Shown here: piece by piece, positions 4,981-54,540 of the stretch
Layout of the letters: every line of letters starts with the position of its first letter
How positions within the stretch are numbered: position 1 is the stretch's first letter
IMG/VR virus record: IMGVR_UViG_3300010413_000041
Span: 1 to 55,141 of that record
Length of the DNA: 55,141 nucleotides
Source of the DNA: a virus
Reading direction: 5' to 3' (one strand)
The notes under the pieces: generated by a model
Seen by the model: only the letters and a program-made list of their open reading frames with translations
Database searches by the model: none
What the model was told of the DNA's origin: nothing
Program-made: the position numbers and the translations under genes

Positions 4981-5187
4981 TTAATCTTCTGACAATGGTT
5001 GTATCTCTTCTTCATAATAGCCTACCCTCTCACCATTCTCATATAAAGCGACATCTCCGGTTATCTTCCCCAACTCTATATTTAACATAAAATCAACATC
5101 ACTCCGGGAGATCCCCAACTGACGCTGGCATACCAAGTAAACCCGCTCCATATCACCATCCAATGCATCTACTATCTCTTTAATCAT
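4981..5187 (-). CDS. Unknown small acidic protein
   Basis: A 68-residue, mostly helical acidic protein. The start at 5187 forms an ATGA overlap with the MuF stop; an ATG three codons upstream (5196) is the alternative. No family recognised; it is in the head operon. Confidence 0.6.
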   Translation of the reverse strand: MIKEIVDALDGDMERVYLVCQRQLGISRSDVDFMLNIELGKITGDVALYENGERVGYYEEEIQPLSED

Positions 5188-6857
5188 TCTGTCCATCCTA
5201 ACTTCGCAAATAGATTATCTATTGCATCCATTATCTTAGCAAAGTCCTCATCTGACCAATATACCGAGTTCCCATAAATCTTATCCGATCTCACCAATGC
5301 AAGCTCCCCCAATAACACAGCATCATTGCTCTTCATGGCAACCCATTGACTGTAAGCCCTAGCCCACAGTTCATGCGATTGCAGACAGTATTGAGCATAC
5401 TCTGGAGAAGGATATACCGTCTTGGTCAAACCACCAATCTCCATTGATGTCTCAAACCTATGTGGTACTCTATATTGAAGGAATAATGTCTTATAAGCCT
5501 CCGTCTCCCTGATAGTTTCCATAACTTCCTTCATGTCCAGATAGTCATATATCCTTGACGCAAACATATCTTCATATCTCATAAACTCCCCCTTCCCGAT
5601 CCCAGAGAGATCCAAGAAGTGACCAGTTTCGTGCGCCGAAGTCAAGCCGGGGTGGTCAGATCCCTTGGAGAGCTTTATATTCAACGGTCTAAGTCTCTGC
5701 TCCCCCTTCACTTCAAAAAAGTCACACCCTAACTCCCCATGCCATCCAACATCCTTAGGAACACTATAGGCAGGAATTTGCGGTAGTTCTATCTCCCCTG
5801 TTCCATGTAACTCATCAATAATATCCAACGTCCTCTGGTAATTCTCCTGCATAAATCTGCTATCTTCAACCGATATCGCCTCACTAACCCTCTTCCCTCC
5901 CGGCTGTGGTGCTCTGACAATATCTATGGGATCGGGAGCTCTAAAGGGTTCGGGTTCGGGCTCAACTTCCTCCCCACCAACAACCTCCTTCGGGAAGAAA
6001 GGCGCAGTCGTACATCTGCAATTGCAAAAGTTCTTTGGAGATCCCGCAGGGTCATGCGGATACATCAACTCTTCCCCCATCACTATAAATGGCTGATCTA
6101 TCGGAATAGGACCAATGCTCCCCCCTTCCTTGTACTCAGATCCTGCCGTCATGTGTTCCGGTCTTGCCCGATCATCATATGTCGCCAACCACTCCTTCCA
6201 CCCCACTCCCCACATCTTATGGATCTCATGAGATCCAGCATTAGCCGCCCTCAATGTCTCGGTTCTGGCTATATTCTCAGTCCTGTGTCTGGGTAATCTC
6301 TCTTCATACCATGCCCACTCATCTGGATCTAACGTCTCTCCCTGATATGCCCTAAACATTGATGTCAAATAATTCTGAGTTTCGGATAACGTCTTACCAC
6401 TCCTCTTCACACCCGCCAATAACCTTCTTATATCATTGTTCGTGGTATCACATATCGGCTGAGCAAATCTCAGGGTGTACTTATTAAACCAATCCCTTGC
6501 TTGCAGGTTCTGGACATCAAACCTAAACCCAAACTCTGCCAGATCCTTAGCCATCTCCTCCCCCCTGCGGATGACCAACTTTGTGATCATTGGCTGAAAC
6601 TCCCTGCGCCATTGTTCCCATGCCTCCCTGTCAAAATACTGTTGAGCCATCGACCGGATGTAATCATAATCAGGACTAGCCTTCTCCCTGAGCGACTTAT
6701 CTTTAGCCTTCTTCAATATAGCCAACATTGCCCGAAGATCATTGTCAAATGCCCTATCCGCAGCCTTCACGAAATCATCAACAAACTCATTGGCTATATC
6801 ATCGTTCTTCTTAGCATATGCCCGTTTTTGCTCAGGGGTTAGGCGCCCCTCTAGTCT
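5184..6857 (-). CDS. MuF-like minor head protein with HExxH metallopeptidase-like C-terminus, likely made by -1 frameshift from the portal gene
   Basis: Numbered from the GTG at 6770 (528 residues). Residues about 100-260 are the phage Mu gpF-like domain, with RTETLRAANAG, DDRARPEH and a CNCRC motif near 249-253. After a Pro/Glu linker, residues about 300-528 form a separate domain with HETGH at 380-384 and a downstream SHELWARAY (Glu about 467). This is the arrangement of a zinc metallopeptidase with a third Glu ligand. No ribosome site precedes the GTG. The frame stays open upstream to 6857 and reads sensible protein (TPEQKRAYAKK), beginning at the slippery run that ends the portal gene. 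I therefore infer a portal-MuF fusion product of about 1077 residues. The minor head part likely acts inside or at the base of the capsid; the peptidase-like part may be injected or act on host wall or proteins. Confidence 0.85.
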   Translation of the reverse strand, partial: RLEGRLTPEQKRAYAKKNDDIANEFVDDFVKAADRAFDNDLRAMLAILKKAKDKSLREKASPDYDYIRSMAQQYFDREAWEQWRREFQPMITKLVIRRGEEMAKDLAEFGFRFDVQNLQARDWFNKYTLRFAQPICDTTNNDIRRLLAGVKRSGKTLSETQNYLTSMFRAYQGETLDPDEWAWYEERLPRHRTENIARTETLRAANAGSHEIHKMWGVGWKEWLATYDDRARPEHMTAGSEYKEGGSIGPIPIDQPFIVMGEELMYPHDPAGSPKNFCNCRCTTAPFFPKEVVGGEEVEPEPEPFRAPDPIDIVRAPQPGGKRVSEAISVEDSRFMQENYQRTLDIIDELHGTGEIELPQIPAYSVPKDVGWHGELGCDFFEVKGEQRLRPLNIKLSKGSDHPGLTSAHETGHFLDLSGIGKGEFMRYEDMFASRIYDYLDMKEVMETIRETEAYKTLFLQYRVPHRFETSMEIGGLTKTVYPSPEYAQYCLQSHELWARAYSQWVAMKSNDAVLLGELALVRSDKIYGNSVYWSDEDFAKIMDAIDNLFAKLGWTE

Positions 6858-6885
6858 TTTTTTCGATCTTCCCCACCCTCCAAGA
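6834..6885 (-). promoter_or_regulatory. Probable -1 programmed frameshift signal at the end of the portal gene
   Basis: In the minus strand the portal frame ends CGA AAA AAA GAC TAG. The seven A's (6857-6863) form the slippery heptamer A_AAA_AAA. Ten to twenty bases upstream is GGAGGGTGGGG, a Shine-Dalgarno-like stretch. Six bases downstream AGGGG pairs with CCCCT around a 7-base loop. These are the three parts of the dnaX-type signal. A -1 slip enters the open MuF frame directly. Confidence 0.75.
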
Positions 6886-8416
6886 TCCCATCTATCAACC
6901 CAGATGTACCCGATATCCCTTCTTGGGATATATCAGGATAACTCCAATTCCCGTACTCATCTCCTTTACCTTCCTGCCACCACCCCTTCCCCAGATCTTC
7001 GCTCTCTTCCTCTGCCTCAGGCTCAGGAACACCCTCATCCGCTCCCCCTGCCTCATCCGTACTCTCCTCCATATCTCCTTCTTCCACCTCGCCATCCTCA
7101 GTTCCATCACCCGCCTTCCCCATCGGCACTAGTGTTGAGATCATGTAGATAGTATCCCCATCCGGAAGATCCCCGATATCTAAATTCAATAAACTCGCAG
7201 CTCTGTGCTTTGGCACTCCATAGGATACCAACTGGGTAAAAGCAACAACCATCTCTGGTTTGTTTACCTGTAACGCTGGCACATCTGAGAAGTCGAACGC
7301 AACCCACTCCTTCCCATCTCGATCCTGCAAATAATACTTGTAATCATCCTCAAATAATAAGATCTCCGGTATCTGGACATCCTCCCAGAATGCTCGCCTT
7401 GCATGCTCCCAATTCTCATACGTTGATCTCTTCAACCCGATCCTTGTTCCTATCAATATCGGAGGAACGCCCAAAGGACCTAGTATGCGGCTCTCGTTGC
7501 GCTCATCCTGCGTCTCAAACCCCATCTCATCAAACCCCATCCCAATCCTCTCATAACTTCCACCCCGATCTAATACCCCGACCTCATCCCAATTCTCATA
7601 GCCTCCATAAGTCTCAGCCCACCTTCTCTTAATCTCATCCACAACCTCATCCTTCATAGCCGTTTCAAACCGTAAGATCCCCGGCACTATTGCTCCCCTC
7701 TCAAAAAACAATTTTATAAAATTGGTCACCATATTATCCACATCCGCAGACCTCGACATAGGAGCGACCGGAGATAACCCATAACCAAACCCATCCAACT
7801 CATCCCCGGGGTTCGGTAACTTCACATGGCTTACATCCTGCGCCAACATCGGGATACCATCCCTCGCCTGTTTACCCTCGGGAACATATAAATATCCCCG
7901 GATATCCCTTGACGCGTCCCTTCCCGGCACTATAAAAGTCCTGTCGGGTCTGAGTGCGTACATGGCTACCGGAAGACCACCCCCCCTCGGTCTCTGATAA
8001 TACGTGTATGCGTTCCCGTCCAGATTGAAGTATACGGTCTGCAATATCTGAAATTCACGCCAACTCGTAGAAGGGTTCGGGCGAGCTACCAACTGTGATA
8101 GTGGTCTATCCGGAGATAATGGCTCAGGATTATCCACATCCCCAGAATAAGCCCTCAACTTGACCAACCCTGCCGATCTTGCCTTATACATGATCGCAGA
8201 ATATATCAGGGAGTTTGCATCAAACCCCTCTTCAACATAACTGTCATAATTGACAATATGCCATTGTGGCGTACCCTCCCTGTAATCAGGATACAACATT
8301 GGGAATTGCTTACCCTCGATCCCAGATCCCCAATATTGCGACCTAACCGGAGATCTCCCAGACCGGAAGTAATCAATCGCCATCTTCAATCTCGTCATAA
8401 ATGTAGGTTTTCTCAT
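6851..8416 (-). CDS. Portal protein, HK97/lambda-type family
   Basis: A 521-residue phage portal protein that forms the dodecameric DNA entry ring at one capsid vertex. Typical segments are SLIYSAIMYKARSA, the GNAYTYYQR strand, the long crown/clip region with GPLGVPPILIG, and the closing PEMVVAFTQLVSYGVPKHRAASLL helix region. The last roughly 90 residues are an acidic Glu/Gly-rich tail, which would be the linker in a frameshifted portal-MuF product. The ATG overlaps the large terminase stop (ATGA). Family length is usually 400-520. Confidence 0.95.
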   Translation of the reverse strand: MRKPTFMTRLKMAIDYFRSGRSPVRSQYWGSGIEGKQFPMLYPDYREGTPQWHIVNYDSYVEEGFDANSLIYSAIMYKARSAGLVKLRAYSGDVDNPEPLSPDRPLSQLVARPNPSTSWREFQILQTVYFNLDGNAYTYYQRPRGGGLPVAMYALRPDRTFIVPGRDASRDIRGYLYVPEGKQARDGIPMLAQDVSHVKLPNPGDELDGFGYGLSPVAPMSRSADVDNMVTNFIKLFFERGAIVPGILRFETAMKDEVVDEIKRRWAETYGGYENWDEVGVLDRGGSYERIGMGFDEMGFETQDERNESRILGPLGVPPILIGTRIGLKRSTYENWEHARRAFWEDVQIPEILLFEDDYKYYLQDRDGKEWVAFDFSDVPALQVNKPEMVVAFTQLVSYGVPKHRAASLLNLDIGDLPDGDTIYMISTLVPMGKAGDGTEDGEVEEGDMEESTDEAGGADEGVPEPEAEEESEDLGKGWWQEGKGDEYGNWSYPDISQEGISGTSGLIDGILEGGEDRKKD

Positions 8417-9798
8417 CTAAAATACACTCCTGCAACCCTCGAATTATAAGCCAAAGCACCCGCAGCGATACTATCTGGGAGGTGTCCAGACCCATAAATA
8501 TCATCCACACTCGCCAATCTATGCTCATTCTCCATAAATTCAATATAGGGGCTCTCGATCTCCCCCCTCTCGATCCCCGCTATGTACTGAGATAACAGGT
8601 CGGATCTCCTTCTTCCCACCATCACTACGGGTTCAATGCCGGGGGATTGCAAATAACCATCCACGACATCCCCCAAACCCGTTCCATCATGTGATCCCGA
8701 TCCCCCATATCTCGCCACCCTCTTATCCAACTCTCCCACCATGACATCCCAAGGCATCCTCCCCATTCTCTTGAACGCCACCAACCTTATCGGATTTACA
8801 TCCACTCGAAAAGTGATAATAACTGTCCAGTCCTGCTTGCGAGCCCAATCCGCACCATGAGCATAATCCGCACCTTCCTCCGGTTCCTCGATCTCAATAT
8901 ACTCATTATTAGCCCCAACAAACTCCCCCAACCCTCTTCGGAACATCTTGCCAACCGCCCGACCATCGATCGCCCTGCTCTCTGGGGAGGGGTCTTGCAA
9001 TTCATACTCATTCAACCACATAGCCTTGGTTACTTCTGTTCTCTTCCTAGCAACCTCTTCCTTATCCAACCATCCTACCGGATCTGCCGAGGTTTCACGA
9101 TAACACCATTGGTATACCCCCCACCCCAATCCCTTGGCTCTCTTCAACACCTCAGTCATTGTTCCCGCAGCGTATTGGTGCGTTGATGACATAACCGTCT
9201 GGGAGCGGATATCCCCCTTCCCCATCGTCTGCCCCTGCGCCGCCTCCAAGATCCTTAAATCCATCTCGTCTATCTCATCCATTCTCAATCTCTGAGGGTG
9301 CGGACCTCTCACAGATGACATGGATGCCATCAAAGCCCGGATATTACAACCCCAACCTAATCTCGTCTCCCTCTTTATCGGGTCAGACGCCAATAAAAAC
9401 CTCGGAGCGTTGTCATAATTCCAAAATTCCTGCATGTAGGAGTGAACCCTCTCAGATTGCAAACCTGAGCCACCAAGTATGTTTACATCTGCCTTCAGTG
9501 TAACAGCTTCGGTTAAACCTAATAAAGCCAACAGATAACTCTTCCCCCCAAACCCTCGGGATGCCTTCCACACCGATACCGGATCTATCGCAAAATAAGC
9601 ATCCGAGAATGCACGCCACGGTGATACATGCCCCTCGCACACCTGTATATCCGGTATCCTGACACCCCAAGAGAGCCAGACAAACTCCCGGAGATCCTCT
9701 TCACTCTTAATCGGGAGCGAAAATCGATGCATCCTCGGTTCTGACAGAACACCAACATTAACTGCCGTGTTCGATAATGCTGATAAACCCAGACCCAT
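8413..9798 (-). CDS. terL: Terminase large subunit
   Basis: A 461-residue DNA-packaging motor. The ATPase domain has a variant Walker A (KASRGFGGKSY, 78-88), a Walker B (RLRMDEID, about 170-177) and a coupling Ser/Thr segment (SSTHQYAAGT). The C-terminal RNase H-like nuclease shows GADWARKQDWT, HDGTGLGD and HLPDSIAAGALA, the usual acidic metal ligands. The start at 9798 is chosen for its AAGGGAG ribosome site and overlaps the small subunit by 41 bases. Confidence 0.95.
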   Translation of the reverse strand: MGLGLSALSNTAVNVGVLSEPRMHRFSLPIKSEEDLREFVWLSWGVRIPDIQVCEGHVSPWRAFSDAYFAIDPVSVWKASRGFGGKSYLLALLGLTEAVTLKADVNILGGSGLQSERVHSYMQEFWNYDNAPRFLLASDPIKRETRLGWGCNIRALMASMSSVRGPHPQRLRMDEIDEMDLRILEAAQGQTMGKGDIRSQTVMSSTHQYAAGTMTEVLKRAKGLGWGVYQWCYRETSADPVGWLDKEEVARKRTEVTKAMWLNEYELQDPSPESRAIDGRAVGKMFRRGLGEFVGANNEYIEIEEPEEGADYAHGADWARKQDWTVIITFRVDVNPIRLVAFKRMGRMPWDVMVGELDKRVARYGGSGSHDGTGLGDVVDGYLQSPGIEPVVMVGRRRSDLLSQYIAGIERGEIESPYIEFMENEHRLASVDDIYGSGHLPDSIAAGALAYNSRVAGVYFR

Positions 9799-45832: not shown

Positions 45833-46063
45833 TCACTTCTTCCTAGCCTTCTTGCTGGCAAACTTCATTTTGTGATCATGTACCTTATTCTCAATCGATA
45901 TCACCTGTAAATGATCCAATATCTGCTCCCACGGAATATCAGCCAGCTCATTCGGTGTGCAATGGTATATATCCCTGCACAATACCAGTTCTAAATATTC
46001 AATTGGAGGAGCCCCGGAATGAGTGTGTAAATACTTTACCAACCTCTCATTCAGGCTTGCTCT
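45833..46063 (-). CDS. Tail assembly chaperone extension (gpT-like), made by -1 frameshift
   Basis: This frame has no proper start; the earliest usable codon is a TTG. Read from the slippery run it gives RASLNERLVKYLHTHSGAPP and then the helical T-type domain ending KKARKK. As in lambda G/GT, it is expected only as a fusion to the preceding chaperone. It lies between that gene and the tape measure, the invariant place for this system. Confidence 0.85.
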   Translation of the reverse strand, partial: RASLNERLVKYLHTHSGAPPIEYLELVLCRDIYHCTPNELADIPWEQILDHLQVISIENKVHDHKMKFASKKARKK

Positions 46064-46398
46064 TTTTTTTCCTCTTCCTTTGAAACTCTGGTAATGTTTA
46101 TCAAACCCAGAAGGTAATCAAGCTCCTCGATTGGCAAACCCTTTAACACTCCTTCCCCCTCCGAGGGGATAGGCAAGGGTTCGTCATCGTCATCAACCCA
46201 ATTCCATTCCAATATCAATCTCTGTAACAGCTCAAAACCCTGTTCTGCCGTGAAGTTCTGAGATAATGTCACACCATCTTCAGCGAAGAGATCTTGTGCA
46301 TGAGCATAGGTCATCGCACTTATAACTACAAATGATCCCTCTCCCTGAATATCATCTGTCTTGATCCTTCTTCGGGATTTATACCTTCGACTTGGCAT
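46051..46398 (-). CDS. Tail assembly chaperone (gpG-like)
   Basis: A 115-residue acidic, helical protein upstream of the tape measure gene. It binds the tape measure during tail assembly, by analogy with lambda gpG. It ends EEEKKEQA on a GAA AAA AAA GAG run, from which ribosomes can slip -1 into the T-like frame. Basic N-terminus (PSRRYKSRRR). Confidence 0.85.
   Translation of the reverse strand: MPSRRYKSRRRIKTDDIQGEGSFVVISAMTYAHAQDLFAEDGVTLSQNFTAEQGFELLQRLILEWNWVDDDDEPLPIPSEGEGVLKGLPIEELDYLLGLINITRVSKEEEKKEQA
46063..46070 (-). promoter_or_regulatory. -1 frameshift slippery run in the tail chaperone gene
   Basis: Eight A's in the minus strand; frame 0 reads GAA AAA AAA GAG, so A_AAA_AAA allows a -1 slip into AGA GCA AGC CTG. 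An AAGGAAGAGG stretch lies immediately upstream and may act as a stimulating Shine-Dalgarno. The stop of the G-like frame is about 9 bases downstream. Confidence 0.85.
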
Positions 46399-48929: not shown

Positions 48930-49826
48930 TTATCTCCTAGCCCAATCCGTAACCAAAAACCTCATCAAAATTGTTCGTAACTGTTGAGATCTCACTCGCC
49001 AATTCATTTTATCCTTTACTAAACTATATCCTGCATCGGCGTACAACTCCCAAGATCCCAGATCCATCAACCCATCAATTATCTCAAATAATTTAGCATA
49101 CTCAATATTATAAGTCAAATAATGCACCCCTGCTACTGCAGGTTCGTCGGGTATTGCCGGCGGAGGGGATGACACAACACAAGTTCTGCACCCCATGGCA
49201 TCATATATCCGGTGTGATCTAATCCCCAACCCTCTATTCAAATTTACGGTTATCTTCGACCTATTAAATGCCTTCGCATAATCCACCCCATATCTGTTCC
49301 CACAGGCAAATGTATATCCCCTCTTCTCACAAAATCTCTTCAATTCTCCCAATAATTCCGCTCTCTTAGGACTGTCCTTGGTTCTGCAATGAAATGACAC
49401 ATCAACATCCTTCTTCATTCCATAATCTTTAAACACCCGATCATTGACCGCATAACCAAACCGGGCAATTGGCTTATTCAATCTTCTAAACCTGCTATCT
49501 TGATCCTGTTCTATCAACAATAAATCAGCATTCTTCCCCTCCCTAACCCGATGCATATAATGGGATCTGCTCAATACACTATCCCCGATGTGATAGATAA
49601 TCGGGATAGTCTCCGAGCCCTTCCACATCCCCCAGATCTTAGCATCCTCATAAAATATCAAATCATAATCATTCCCCAACAATCCCCGGTTCAATACAAA
49701 CCCCTTATCAACGGGAATGTGATCCCAGACCATACCACTAACCGGATAACTCCACCAACCGATCATCCTGTTTTTTCCTGCTCTCGGAGAGATCCTATGC
49801 ACTAACGCAATCTTTAACAACTTCAT
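48930..49826 (-). CDS. GT-B-type glycosyltransferase
   Basis: A 298-residue transferase of the CgeB/Glyco_trans_1_2-like type. YDLIFYEDAKIWG in the N-terminal half, VDVSFHCRTKDSPKRAELL and FACGNRYGVDYAKAFNRSKITVN, then the donor-binding LGIRSHRIYDAMGCRTCVVS loop (acidic/Asp site in a GT-B fold). It is the last gene of the modification island, next to the head-tail connector gene. Probably modifies the virion; host surface glycan is the alternative. Confidence 0.8.
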   Translation of the reverse strand: MKLLKIALVHRISPRAGKNRMIGWWSYPVSGMVWDHIPVDKGFVLNRGLLGNDYDLIFYEDAKIWGMWKGSETIPIIYHIGDSVLSRSHYMHRVREGKNADLLLIEQDQDSRFRRLNKPIARFGYAVNDRVFKDYGMKKDVDVSFHCRTKDSPKRAELLGELKRFCEKRGYTFACGNRYGVDYAKAFNRSKITVNLNRGLGIRSHRIYDAMGCRTCVVSSPPPAIPDEPAVAGVHYLTYNIEYAKLFEIIDGLMDLGSWELYADAGYSLVKDKMNWRVRSQQLRTILMRFLVTDWARR

Positions 49827-49864
49827 TTTACATCCAAGATCATTATGTAGGTTTCCTCAACTTC

Positions 49865-49914
49865 TTAACTATTACTATTCCTTTAACTATTACTATTCCT
49901 TTAACTATTACTAT
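49865..49914. repeat. 2.8 copies of an 18-base direct repeat
   Basis: TTAACTATTACTATTCCT units at 49865-49882 and 49883-49900, plus 14 further bases. They lie in the 161-base gap upstream of the glycosyltransferase gene, next to ATAGGGTAT sites. Spacing near 18 suggests protein binding on different helix faces or a mutable spacer. Too short for CRISPR. Confidence 0.75.
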
Positions 49915-49920
49915 GTCATA

Positions 49921-49985
49921 TGGTATCCATACCCTATCTATACGGTATGCTCGTAAATTCATACCCTATCGATACCATGTCGATA
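49921..49985 (-). promoter_or_regulatory. Control region with ATAGGGTAT motifs
   Basis: GGTAT-CC-ATACC (49922-49933) is a small palindrome. ATACCCTAT occurs at 49929-49937 and 49961-49969, in the minus strand as two direct GATAGGGTATGRA sites. Sixteen bases (ATAGGGTATGGATACC) are shared with the palindrome upstream of terS. Probably a shared operator or late-promoter element; I cannot place a -35. Confidence 0.55.
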
Positions 49986-49987
49986 GC

Positions 49988-50683
49988 TTAGGGGATACCA
50001 TATATCTTCTCAGCATACTTCTTTGTCTTATAAAATCCGACCATACCAAACCCAAACTCATCAATAACACTCACATCAAACAACTCCTGTGGGTACTCTT
50101 CCCCCCTCAACCACCCATAAAATTCATTCACTGCATCGTAGACCGGAGCACAAGGACGCCTCTTCGCATCCGCAGGAGCGTAATCATGGAACAACATCAA
50201 CCCATTGACCTTCAACCTGTTCCAATAGGGGAGATCCCCCTTAACCCCTGCGTGATCCCCATCAACAAATATAAGATCCCACAGATCCCCCTTCGTTATA
50301 TCCAAATAATCCGTACTCTTTATCATCCTTGCCTGTACATTGGTGAAGATCCCCAATCTCTTCTTCGCAGGCTCAAATTCAGCCATTTTAGGGTTCAGAG
50401 TGGTAATTCTCCCCAATTTACACGCCTGAGCGAGTATTGACGCAGAATAACCCCACGCAGTTCCGATCTCCAATATCCGAGATCCCGGATAATTATATTG
50501 ACTGGCAAACCAGTAAAGATATAAAGCCTCATATAAATCAATCTCCCTCTTGCACCGAGGCACCACCTGTCTGGCATAATCAAGAGCATAAATCCCCTCC
50601 GGACATGCCTCACAAACAACCCTAATCAAATCTTCCTGCGGAAGATGTAAATCAATCTTAATCAACTTATTCTCATCAACCAT
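49988..50683 (-). CDS. SAM-dependent methyltransferase
   Basis: A 231-residue class I methyltransferase. Motif I is ILEIGTAWGYSASIL. The acidic strand II and DLIFVDGDHAG (motif IV) follow, with LKVNGLMLFHDYAP after, as in the O-methyltransferase Methyltransf_24 type. Overlaps the upstream fusion gene by 8 bases. Likely methylates a sugar hydroxyl made by the neighbouring transferases. Confidence 0.85.
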   Translation of the reverse strand: MVDENKLIKIDLHLPQEDLIRVVCEACPEGIYALDYARQVVPRCKREIDLYEALYLYWFASQYNYPGSRILEIGTAWGYSASILAQACKLGRITTLNPKMAEFEPAKKRLGIFTNVQARMIKSTDYLDITKGDLWDLIFVDGDHAGVKGDLPYWNRLKVNGLMLFHDYAPADAKRRPCAPVYDAVNEFYGWLRGEEYPQELFDVSVIDEFGFGMVGFYKTKKYAEKIYGIP

Positions 50684-51881
50684 TGAAGCACCAATATACA
50701 GCTCTAGGATAATTATCGTTGGTCATCCCCATGTAATTTACCGATCTAAATGTGGCTCTCAACCATCCATCATAAGCCTCTTTGGGTAAGCCCCCATGTC
50801 CTTCAAAATACACTATTCCACCACCTTCAACAACGGATAACAGAGTTGTGCTGAGTTTATCACTCACAAATCTGTACTTCTCATCTTCATAGTCGAGCAT
50901 TGACAGAGTTGTGCACTCGTCAAACAGCGAACACCCATCGGAGGACAGTTTATCAGCAACCTTCCGCATTAAATGACCAAAAACCGCCAAAAACATAACC
51001 ACATCAAATCTCCTAATCCCGGTCATCTCGAATAGATAATCCCCCAGATCTTCTCTTGTGGCATCAACCCCGAGGTAATCAATATTCCAGTTCCCCAATA
51101 GATTGGAGATCTCAAATGCTAACTCAGCCTTCTCGGGTTTATCGATCCCGACCACACGCCTAGCCCCATAACCATCAATAATCCTCGAGATCCCCCCAGT
51201 ATTACAACCAATATCAAGGACATCAAGAGCACTCCAATCCCTCTTATCTAATCCCATAAACTCCACTCTGTAATCAAGATCTCTCGCCCCATCGATCTTC
51301 ATAGCCTTGACAGGCTGATAAGCACTATCAAATATCTTCCCCTTCCTTGTCCTAATCCTCTCTGACAACCCCCTCTCATAATCCCCCAGATCTCTAAACT
51401 TAAATCCCCCCAAATCCACCAACATCCCATTCCTCCATGTCTCTTGCTCATTCTGGATTATCTCGATCCTGCGATGCACGATCCCATATCGTTCCATCAC
51501 ACTCAACACCGCTCCGGTATCCTTCTCTCGATCCCCGGGAACAACATAATCGCAGACCTGTGCAGGGTACTTGTCATTCACTCTCACTAAATCATAAACC
51601 CTTGGAGAGATCCCCACCCTCGCAAATATATTCTGCACCATTGACACCTCATCTAAATAAGCCTTCTGCCAGATCTCCTCCCCCTCCGGTATACCATCCG
51701 GATATCTTCTTGATGTCAACAACTTTAAACACAACCCTTCTCTTCCATATATCCCAAACAACAATTCATCTATCGAAGGACTGTATATAACCACACATTG
51801 GCTCGCCTCTCTGGTGGTCGGGTTCTTCTCCAATAAATCATCATAAACCCGCAGTGGTCTATATCTCTTCTTCTTCAACAC
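50676..51881 (-). CDS. Kinase-like/methyltransferase fusion
   Basis: A 401-residue two-domain protein. The N-terminal roughly 190 residues look like an aminoglycoside-phosphotransferase/protein-kinase-like lobe (QKAYLDEVSMVQNIFARVG, VCDYVVPGD, MLVDLGGFKF). The C-terminal about 200 are a class I methyltransferase (VLDIGCNTGGISRIIDGYG, VVGIDKPEK, FDVVMFLAVFGHL). Start is a GTG with GGAGG seven bases upstream, overlapping the sulfotransferase gene by 23 bases. May phosphorylate and methylate the same sugar; catalytic kinase residues are not clearly complete. Confidence 0.7.
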   Translation of the reverse strand: MLKKKRYRPLRVYDDLLEKNPTTREASQCVVIYSPSIDELLFGIYGREGLCLKLLTSRRYPDGIPEGEEIWQKAYLDEVSMVQNIFARVGISPRVYDLVRVNDKYPAQVCDYVVPGDREKDTGAVLSVMERYGIVHRRIEIIQNEQETWRNGMLVDLGGFKFRDLGDYERGLSERIRTRKGKIFDSAYQPVKAMKIDGARDLDYRVEFMGLDKRDWSALDVLDIGCNTGGISRIIDGYGARRVVGIDKPEKAELAFEISNLLGNWNIDYLGVDATREDLGDYLFEMTGIRRFDVVMFLAVFGHLMRKVADKLSSDGCSLFDECTTLSMLDYEDEKYRFVSDKLSTTLLSVVEGGGIVYFEGHGGLPKEAYDGWLRATFRSVNYMGMTNDNYPRAVYWCFNG

Positions 51882-52662
51882 GGATAGCCTCCACTCCCGG
51901 AATAAACTTCTTGTATATTGTTCCCTTTATCTCCCTCTTGACCTCTTCCCAATTCAATATCGTTTGCGCCGGGGGATAACTAACCTTCCTCATCGAAGGC
52001 GCCAACAAGGGAGCATAACCAACTTCAAGATAATCACAGATCTTCTCCCCCGTTGGAATGGGAATGCCAACAACTTCTCGCCCCTCCTCTCCCACCAAAT
52101 CTTTGTAATCAAGATATAGCACCTCATCATACTCATAAAACTTAATCAACTTCATAACCTCGATCCTGCGAGATCTCATCCTGTCACAGACCTCAACAAC
52201 CTTCTTGGGGTCTATATTGATCTTCCGGAACAACGGTCGCTCATAAAAGGCATGGGTCGGTTTGTACTGTTGATGTCTGACCACCTCACTCAACGCAGAC
52301 AATAAAATATTATCTCTCGTCAAGTGGATTATCTTGATCCCATTGTCCTTCAAATAGGGAGCAACTTCTACCAGATCAGTAAATTGAGTATGACTTATCT
52401 TACACATCGATACCTCGACCTGTGGTCGGTGTAATTCAAAGTCCAATATCTGTTCCGTACTGGCATTAAATATTTTTCTATGCCAACTGTGACCATGTAA
52501 CGGCTCATCTAAACAACAATGGATCGCATAGTGACTGTCCAGACAATGGGATAGGAATGTTCCCCCAGATCTATTGTGCGATATCACCACCGCAGACCTA
52601 ACCGCAGTCTCCAATCTCATCCCCCCGGCTTTGTATACTTTCTTCGGATCAGTTTCTATCAT
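51859..52662 (-). CDS. Second sulfotransferase-family protein
   Basis: A 267-residue divergent sulfotransferase (Stf0/Sulfotransfer-like). VVISHNRSGGTFLSHCLDSH is the PAPS 5'-phosphosulfate loop with Arg-Ser-Gly-Gly-Thr in place of Lys-Ser-Gly-Thr. IIHLTRDNILLSALSEV gives the 3'-phosphate site Arg and Ser. LYLDYKDLVG follows. It overlaps both neighbours by 14-23 bases within the modification island and probably sulfates the same glycan that the transferases build. Confidence 0.75.
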   Translation of the reverse strand: MIETDPKKVYKAGGMRLETAVRSAVVISHNRSGGTFLSHCLDSHYAIHCCLDEPLHGHSWHRKIFNASTEQILDFELHRPQVEVSMCKISHTQFTDLVEVAPYLKDNGIKIIHLTRDNILLSALSEVVRHQQYKPTHAFYERPLFRKINIDPKKVVEVCDRMRSRRIEVMKLIKFYEYDEVLYLDYKDLVGEEGREVVGIPIPTGEKICDYLEVGYAPLLAPSMRKVSYPPAQTILNWEEVKREIKGTIYKKFIPGVEAIRVEEEEI

Positions 52663-54316
52663 CGGGTCTGTTCACCTTCTCCACACGCTCCCACGCCTCA
52701 TCACTATCCGTTCTGCCATATATCAATCCTCCCCACCTTCGAGCCGTCATATTGTGATGTATAACTGCCAGATCCCCCGATGGATAGGGATATCTGTCTG
52801 AGGCATTCCATTGGTTTCCTAACACATAAACCCTCACCGGATCTTCATATAACGCCCTCAATAATGCCCCTTGATCTCTCGCAGCGTACTTGTGCCACTC
52901 ATCCAACCATCTCTCAAATAACCTCTTCGTCCTATCATTCCTTCTAAACCCAAACACGCCCCCGTTGTACTGCATCACTTCTCCCGTTCCGATCTTCCTG
53001 ATAGTTTCGTCAAACTCGGCTTTGTTATCCGGTCTAATCATGTTCCAAGCAACATGATATTTGGACATATCTTTGCAAATCAATATATCCCACCCATCCG
53101 CTAACACCTGAAACAAAAAGGAGAGATCCCCCACAGTCTCCGTATCCGCATCCATGTATAAAATATACTCCCACCCCTCGGGAACAACCTCATAAACTGA
53201 CAACTTCCCCAACCTTCCCCCTATGTCCACATCCGGAAGATGTATAAACAGATCTTCTCCCGCTCCCAACTCCCTTGTTCCTCCAAATGCGATCGGAACT
53301 TCGGGCATATAATCTTTAAATGATCTTATACAGGTCTTGGCACACTCCCTTGACGGAGATCCAAAAGCCACACAATACATTCCAGCTTTACCTTCCCACC
53401 CCCCAGAGATCCGCACCGGATATCTCTCTAACGCTCCTTCATAATCATATATCAAACTCTCTACCGCCACTCTGAAATCAGCACACCAGTTCTCTATACT
53501 ATATTCCGCTACACTCGCCCTCAACTCCTCACCATCCACGATCCCCATTTTAATATCATCACACAATAACTCGGTCTTGCTGATAAGATCTTCGAGATCC
53601 CCCATCCTGTAATGTCTTATCCCCGGTATCTCTGGAAGATCATCCATTATCCCAACCCCAGACGGTATGAGCACCGCAGTTCCACAACTCAAAGCCTCCA
53701 ACGGAGGCATTGGCACTCCCTCAACCCTGCTGGCACATAAATAAATATCGATCCCTTGGTAAAATTCAGCCATATCTTCCCATCTGCGCCACCTGTGGCT
53801 TATCGTCCACCCCCTCCCAGACGCCACCCATTTACATCTTCTCCCTATCGGACTTCTCATCAAACCATCTATCAAATCCTCCCCCTTCCTACCATCCCCG
53901 TAGGAAACGCCCGAAATCCCTATAAGTAAAACGTCATTGTCAGTAGGTTTCTTTCGGGAGAATAGAGTAGCATCAACCGGAGGGCGAGCCAGATACGTGC
54001 TCCCACTCGATTGGAGATCAGGAAGATTGAGTTTTGATGATGTAACCCTGACATCTACCGATCTCTTAGCCAGATCCCACCATCCTTCCTTCTCCTTCCT
54101 GTTGGTATCCTTGTGCGTGAAATAAGCCACCGTCTTGGTGAGATCCCACCCCGGGAACCTCTCCGCATAATCGATGTACGGAAAAAACACATTGACATCA
54201 ACATCTCTTCTCGGGTTTTCACCGATACTCCAACCCAGACCTTCAGCAAGATATCTAGCCTTCCTCGCTAATACTTGATCCCCTAATGGACTGGTGGCAA
54301 CAACATGCACTCTCAT
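52649..54316 (-). CDS. Bifunctional glycosyltransferase: GT4-like plus GT-A domain
   Basis: A 555-residue protein. Residues 1 to about 300 are a GT-B group-1-type domain, with LLIGISGVSYGDGRKGEDLI and the donor-site loop DIYLCASRVEGVPMPPLEAL, the Glu-x7-Glu of this family. Residues about 320-555 are a GT-A domain with DADTETVGDLSFLF (DxD site), QYNGGVFGFRR and AARDQGALLRALY. It is clearly related to the separate GT-A protein at 54533-55141. Start is the ATG in an ATGA overlap. It could add two sugars in turn. Confidence 0.85.
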   Translation of the reverse strand: MRVHVVATSPLGDQVLARKARYLAEGLGWSIGENPRRDVDVNVFFPYIDYAERFPGWDLTKTVAYFTHKDTNRKEKEGWWDLAKRSVDVRVTSSKLNLPDLQSSGSTYLARPPVDATLFSRKKPTDNDVLLIGISGVSYGDGRKGEDLIDGLMRSPIGRRCKWVASGRGWTISHRWRRWEDMAEFYQGIDIYLCASRVEGVPMPPLEALSCGTAVLIPSGVGIMDDLPEIPGIRHYRMGDLEDLISKTELLCDDIKMGIVDGEELRASVAEYSIENWCADFRVAVESLIYDYEGALERYPVRISGGWEGKAGMYCVAFGSPSRECAKTCIRSFKDYMPEVPIAFGGTRELGAGEDLFIHLPDVDIGGRLGKLSVYEVVPEGWEYILYMDADTETVGDLSFLFQVLADGWDILICKDMSKYHVAWNMIRPDNKAEFDETIRKIGTGEVMQYNGGVFGFRRNDRTKRLFERWLDEWHKYAARDQGALLRALYEDPVRVYVLGNQWNASDRYPYPSGDLAVIHHNMTARRWGGLIYGRTDSDEAWERVEKVNRPDDRN

Positions 54317-54540
54317 TGTATAAACCTGTTCCTCTTCCTCAACGGAGGATATCTGTTGATGTTGTTCCATACCATATCTAACCACACCAAATTCGCTAGC
54401 GGACCATAACCCTCTAAATTGGGATCTGCATTAATCATCCTGACCAACTGCTCCCTAGCATCTGCCCCAATCTCATCAAACCTGTGATCATGAGCAATCT
54501 TTATCAACTTATCTATCTTGGGATAATCGATCTCAGGCAT
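54313..54540 (-). CDS. Unknown 75-residue protein in modification island
   Basis: A helical protein, coupled by overlaps to glycosyltransferase genes on both sides (8 bases with the gene before, ATGA with the one after). No family recognised; perhaps a chaperone or acceptor-recognition subunit. Confidence 0.6.
   Translation of the reverse strand: MPEIDYPKIDKLIKIAHDHRFDEIGADAREQLVRMINADPNLEGYGPLANLVWLDMVWNNINRYPPLRKRNRFIQ

Follow-up and report, generated by a model that had tools for sequence, protein, structure and literature searches.

The portal-MuF junction

How is a MuF protein made when its reading frame opens inside the end of the portal gene and has no good start of its own? This question is raised by the window analysed here, the whole 55,141-nucleotide stretch of virus record IMGVR_UViG_3300010413_000041. 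The first-pass annotation had proposed that a -1 frameshift with a dnaX-like signal joins the portal and MuF proteins. The features concerned are:

6851-8416, minus strand: portal protein gene, HK97/RcGTA-type, 521 aa, the zero-frame product (Pfam, PHROG and structure-profile matches)
6863-6857, minus strand: slippery run A7, read in the portal frame as CG[A AAA AAA] G
6853-6851, minus strand: portal stop codon TAG, zero frame (sequence)
5184-6857, minus strand: MuF (SPP1 gp7-like) coding sequence, 557 residues, entered by the inferred -1 shift (Pfam, PHROG, alignments)
6768-6770, minus strand: GTG within the conserved MuF domain; no other conventional start codon occurs in the upstream MuF frame
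6877-6881, minus strand: GGAGG, Shine-Dalgarno-like, 13 nt upstream of A7; possible stimulator
6834-6850, minus strand: stem-loop AGGGG-CGCCTAA-CCCCT, 5 bp, 6 nt downstream of A7 (folding); possible stimulator
5184-5633, minus strand: MuF C-terminal extension containing HETGH (5633-5619), a zincin-like motif, and matching LPD1 weakly (Pfam/PHROG, sequence)
45833-46398, minus strand: tail-assembly-chaperone G/GT pair (sequence), used as internal control

The portal protein matched Phage_portal (PF04860; Pfam, E 1e-37) and a PHROG portal family, and its family profile matched the RcGTA portal 6tba (E 1e-30), which meets the criterion for an HK97/RcGTA-type portal. The frame directly after it matched Phage_Mu_F (PF04233) with E 4e-9, above the curated cut-off, and qualifies as a member of the MuF/SPP1 gp7 family; its MuF domain carries an NCRC motif. 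In PHROG 2662, a fused family, the portal matches the first part and MuF the last part. The shift product would be a portal-MuF fusion of 1,077 aa, a length computed from the sequence. The C-terminal extension of MuF may be an injected cargo domain, a function that is inferred. This C-terminus resembles that of an Akkermansia phage head protein. Elsewhere in the window, a putative large terminase (8413-9798, minus strand), which matched nothing in Pfam, PHROG or the isolates, was assigned by its position, and glycosyltransferase-like ORFs were seen at 48930-49826 and 52649-54385 (region 48930-54385, minus strand).

The portal gene ends in GAA GAT CGA AAA AAA GAC TAG, which confirms the reported junction sequence, and AAA AAA are the final two portal codons ahead of the shift. 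The run lies in the zero-frame phase A_AAA_AAA and meets, at the overlap, the X_XXY_YYZ pattern of a slippery heptamer for -1 ribosomal frameshifting. With a G after it, this heptamer differs from the exact dnaX A_AAA_AAG. In the 55 kb, the minus strand carries only two runs of at least seven A, and both lie at -1 frameshift junctions (portal-MuF and the tail-chaperone G/GT). Under a first-order Markov model about 1.6 such runs would be expected per strand, and the probability of one falling by chance within the 81-base overlap is therefore about 0.002.

In the G/GT pair, the G-like ORF (46398-46051) has an A8 run near its end (46070-46063). The -1 frame from A8 ends at the stop codon 45835-45833, just before the start (45831) of the tape-measure gene, which was identified by PHROGs. 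The slip motif is A_AAA_AAA_G, as at the portal-MuF junction, and we take this A8 site to be at the canonical position of the phage G/GT frameshift.

Two possible stimulators flank the A7 run, both of which had been pointed out in the first-pass annotation. The Shine-Dalgarno-like GGAGG is present upstream, but is not conserved in L160 and L161, the closest relatives whose junction could be read. The AGGGG/CCCCT hairpin six bases downstream is also present, and its arms (6850-6846 and 6838-6834) can pair. When compared with dinucleotide shuffles of 50 nt it was no better (z = 0.0), and a claim that the hairpin is significant on its own was dropped. Compared with other 28-nt windows from its region, it does rank within the most stable 4%. 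The GGGG...CCCC arms are kept in L160 and L161; a coded LTP motif accounts for part of this conservation.

The MuF frame lacks a likely start codon

As had been described, the frame entered at A7 is open and has no good start before a GTG 87 bases past the run. The -1 frame stays open between 6932 and 5184, and GTG 6770 is the sole ATG, GTG or TTG in it between 6932 and 6770. Separate translation of MuF, either from this GTG or through reinitiation immediately after the portal stop at a non-standard codon, could be considered, as the GTG lies in the MuF frame and, in some relatives, MuF is a separate gene that begins with ATG. Several observations speak against it. MuF homology reaches upstream from GTG 6770 as far as the A run: KKRLEGRLTPEQKRAYAKKNDDIANEFVDDF aligns with the linker and the MuF start in relatives, which shows that the MuF frame already codes for protein ahead of the GTG, six invariant alignment columns lie there (Q12, K13, A15, D21, A24 and F31), and the PHROG 2468 match starts 20 residues ahead of the GTG. 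A start at 6770 would lose about 29 residues, several of them conserved. Because it would remove conserved protein, GTG 6770 is an unlikely MuF start. Moreover, in most relatives with A7 or A9 at the junction the MuF frame reaches the conserved domain without passing an ATG, GTG or TTG, and the recurrence of the slip run would have no reason if MuF were translated separately. We consider this explanation very unlikely.

The coding frame changes at the A run in the nearest relatives

The portals of L160 and L161 are 58% and 54% identical to that of the window. Alignment of related phages at the junction, which had been suggested as a check, showed that both share the A7 run, its phase and the -1 frame with the window. 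Neither has an ATG, GTG or TTG for MuF ahead of its conserved domain. L160 and L161 are 75% identical in nucleotide sequence over 700 bases, with zero differences from the start of A7 to +22. Upstream of the run, 55 of 113 differences fall at third positions of portal codons, whereas downstream 45 of 63 fall at third positions of MuF codons, as do all six differences between +7 and +100. The coding frame thus changes at the A run, and purifying selection acts on the portal side and the MuF side alike. Conservation of both the site and the new-frame coding in relatives, a criterion for frameshifting, is met by this pair.

Distribution of the junction among relatives

Alignment-based scans of IMG/VR yielded about 90 distinct portal loci of the family; single-protein scans of viral contigs had found no relatives. 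All close relatives are uncultured metagenome contigs. No host was identified, because a genome scan returned one MAG contig only and this duplicates a fused viral locus (L109).

Each locus was assigned by a classifier. About thirty have an in-frame portal-MuF fusion and no slip site, and in sixteen a slippery run marks a -1 split between the two. Four more are fused in frame yet have a slippery run in the linker. Nineteen were labelled separate, of which many have a start codon of their own and some are arranged differently, and the remaining loci have no detectable neighbouring MuF or reach the contig edge. Related phages with a clear MuF start and ribosome site after the portal stop would have refuted a frameshift; the nearest relatives with a readable junction lack a MuF start codon altogether, and in some more distant ones the genes are separate and MuF has a start of its own. 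The earlier remark that portal and MuF are common neighbours and that some phages encode one fused gene also held, and relatives at 43-54% portal identity encode portal-MuF in frame. None of the distant portal loci (L017-L090 and isolates) showed an A-run junction opening a long -1 frame.

A C_CCT_TTT heptamer lies in the portal-MuF linker of two loci, one with a -1 split (L185:5104) and one fused (L091:3545). L104 has a C_CCA_AAA heptamer; because ATG/GTG starts lie upstream as well, it was assigned to the separate genes. An in-frame A9 in L118 (position 4179) lies within the MuF domain, away from the junction.

The slip arrangement is therefore recurrent and not universal. Because many relatives have either a plain fusion lacking a slip site or two separate genes, a mixture of portal and fusion is not essential to the family.

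Long C-terminal extensions of MuF were seen in L104, L110, L114, L141, L222, L224 and L226. The domains found are NUDIX (L114), DUF3626 (L104) and a weak DRAT-like match (L141); the others are unassigned. Such extensions may be injected cargo, with which they are consistent (PMC5512222).

A9 junctions and fused loci of possible opposite polarity

An exact A9 with a -1 split was found in 12 representatives (L098, L106, L110, L119, L122, L128, L212, L215, L218, L222, L224 and L226); two of these, L222 and L224, are almost the same and should be counted as one. The MuF start codon is usually absent. When seven contigs of 24-100 kb were searched whole, A9 was the only run of eight or more A on either strand in six of them; the seventh had two additional A8 runs. 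On the portal tree the A9 state requires about ten changes, at least five of them forced by well-supported branches, so it has been gained or lost repeatedly.

In L174 and L182, portal and MuF are fused in frame zero, yet the linker has A_AAA_AAA_G followed by a strong hairpin. A -1 slip would here reach a stop after 10 and 5 codons, respectively, and yield the portal alone. By analogy, this is the polarity of E. coli dnaX, and either polarity would give the same pair of products. Two other fused loci were not pressed as functional mirror sites: in L095 (A9) the -1 frame runs for 35 codons, and L091 (C_CCT_TTT) has no unusual hairpin.

Two further explanations bear on these patterns. One is that a sequencing or assembly error, or a recent mutation, has broken a plain A8 portal-MuF fusion; many relatives are fused in frame, and a single added A would fuse the frames of the window. 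Against this, A7 and the -1 shift are common to two relatives at 54-58% identity, a -1 shift at A9 occurs in the 12 further representatives, purifying selection acts on either side of the shift in L160 and L161, and run length agrees among near-identical contigs from different samples. An error or recent mutation is therefore very unlikely. The other is phase variation, in which changes in DNA run length toggle the MuF fusion within a population. Homopolymer runs are typical contingency loci, and the fused and split states are scattered over the portal tree. However, near-identical contigs recovered from different samples show exact A9 and A7 lengths that do not vary, and the split at A runs is always -1, never +1. 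Phase variation has very little support.

Proposed ribosomal slippage at A7 and probable transcriptional slippage at A9

A programmed -1 frameshift is thus the reading we retain for the window, and we regard it as very likely, in the absence of expression, ribosome-profiling or virion data. The proposed -1 joining of portal and MuF held in so far as comparison shows homology that spans the junction, a change of frame, recurrence of the site and the absence of starts. Slippage itself, its efficiency, the machine that slips and a stoichiometric purpose are all inferred, including the fixed portal:fusion ratio suggested earlier.

The shift could also arise by transcriptional slippage, if RNA polymerase added an A (A7 to A8) and so produced a fused mRNA. 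In support, relatives have an exact A9 at the junction, mostly without stable hairpins, which is the known Thermus dnaX pattern (PMC5009743, PMC3711429). However, A7 is short for efficient polymerase slippage and does not meet the run length of n > 7 quoted for An (PMC3711429), and the A7 sites have the ribosomal phase and a downstream hairpin. For the window we therefore consider transcriptional slippage unlikely.

The phase needed for ribosomal slippage, A_AAA_AAA, is common to all five A7 sites. In a post hoc analysis, their downstream hairpins, taken jointly, were more stable than is usual at their loci (combined p about 3e-7), whereas the A9 sites are mostly without stable hairpins (A7 versus A9, Mann-Whitney p 0.007, also post hoc). 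The hairpin test window was chosen after the sites had been seen, and L160 and L161 are related, so the p values are indicative only. The 12 A9 split representatives meet the run-length criterion for transcriptional slippage, a run of about nine A/T with no structure required. The A9 run does contain an in-phase A_AAA_AAA, and ribosomal slippage remains possible there.

In the ribosomal model for the window, most ribosomes would end at the TAG 6853-6851 and release the 521-aa portal. Some would slip back by one base, with tRNA-Lys pairing on A_AAA_AAA, and produce the 1,077-aa portal-MuF. The slip would be helped by the downstream hairpin and perhaps by the upstream GGAGG. Built into the portal ring, the fusion would place MuF, with its cargo-like C-terminal domain, inside the head on only some of the subunits. 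In the A9 relatives, RNA polymerase slippage adding one A would probably lead to the same two products. By analogy with dnaX, we think it likely that the A7 sites act by ribosomal -1 frameshifting and the A9 sites, probably, by polymerase slippage, both giving mixed pools of portal and portal-MuF. A bolder reading, to be taken as one joint claim, is that portal-MuF recoding evolved repeatedly, by ribosomal (A7, C_CCT_TTT) or polymerase (A9) slippage and in both polarities, to give a mixed portal ring with a set fraction of MuF and cargo. Towards this we lean only slightly.

Discussion

The closest mechanistic precedent is dnaX tau/gamma, in which E. coli uses ribosomal slippage on A_AAA_AAG and Thermus transcriptional slippage on A9 (PMC5009743, PMC3711429). 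There too, A-run slip sites give a short and a long product from one start, the ribosomal type has a hairpin and Shine-Dalgarno-like stimulators, homologous genes use two alternative mechanisms and both polarities are reported. In contrast, dnaX is a polymerase gene and not a phage structural junction. The portal-MuF shift would usually make the long product, and its slip sites have been gained or lost repeatedly within one family. The phage tail-chaperone G/GT frameshift (Xu et al. 2004, cited in PMC6316719) is similar in that a -1 shift near the 3′ end of a structural gene adds a C-terminal domain, and the G/GT pair of the window itself has A_AAA_AAA_G. It differs in concerning a tail chaperone and in being strongly conserved among tailed phages, whereas the portal-MuF slip concerns the head portal and is scattered.

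Among head proteins, SPP1 gp7 (MuF) is bound to the portal inside the head at low copy, one to two per capsid (PMC5576092, PMC6316719). This resembles the arrangement inferred here, but gp6 and gp7 of SPP1 are encoded by separate genes and bind non-covalently. Constitutive portal-MuF fusions are found in Microbacterium EA/EB phages (PMC7302621), Geobacillus GBK2 and Bacillus Silence. They hold the two domains in one order in one polypeptide; as the gene is continuous, MuF would be on every portal subunit.

No report of portal-MuF recoding was found in the open-access literature searched. For Brevibacillus phage Emery, 58.9 and 82.5 kDa forms of a gp7-like protein were predicted to arise by slippage (PMC4168068). 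The record (KC595516; L228:3171-5350) annotates gp4/gp5 as a -1 joined CDS, with a 520-aa short product after the terminase gene. On our reading of this record, the short product is likely a T4-like portal and the predicted -1 extension a MuF domain, with T_TTT_TTA as the slip site. As in the window, a -1 shift would add a MuF-like domain to a product that we read as a portal, but the portal family is different, and the authors named a gp7-like head morphogenesis protein and described no portal (PMC4168068). Emery probably represents an independent, unrecognised case of portal-MuF recoding in an isolated phage, predicted and untested.

Standard gene callers are likely to start such MuF genes too late or to miss the fusion. 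Recurrence and the apparent use of two mechanisms are what raise the interest of the portal-MuF slip. It would be a second dnaX-like example, in which homologous genes apparently use slippage of the ribosome or of the polymerase to one end. The A7, A9, fused and separate states form a natural series for testing covalent attachment of MuF. We infer that, if only a fraction of portal chains were extended into the fusion, the copies of MuF on the 12-subunit ring would be limited; by our own arithmetic, a shift of about 8-17% would give one to two MuF per ring.
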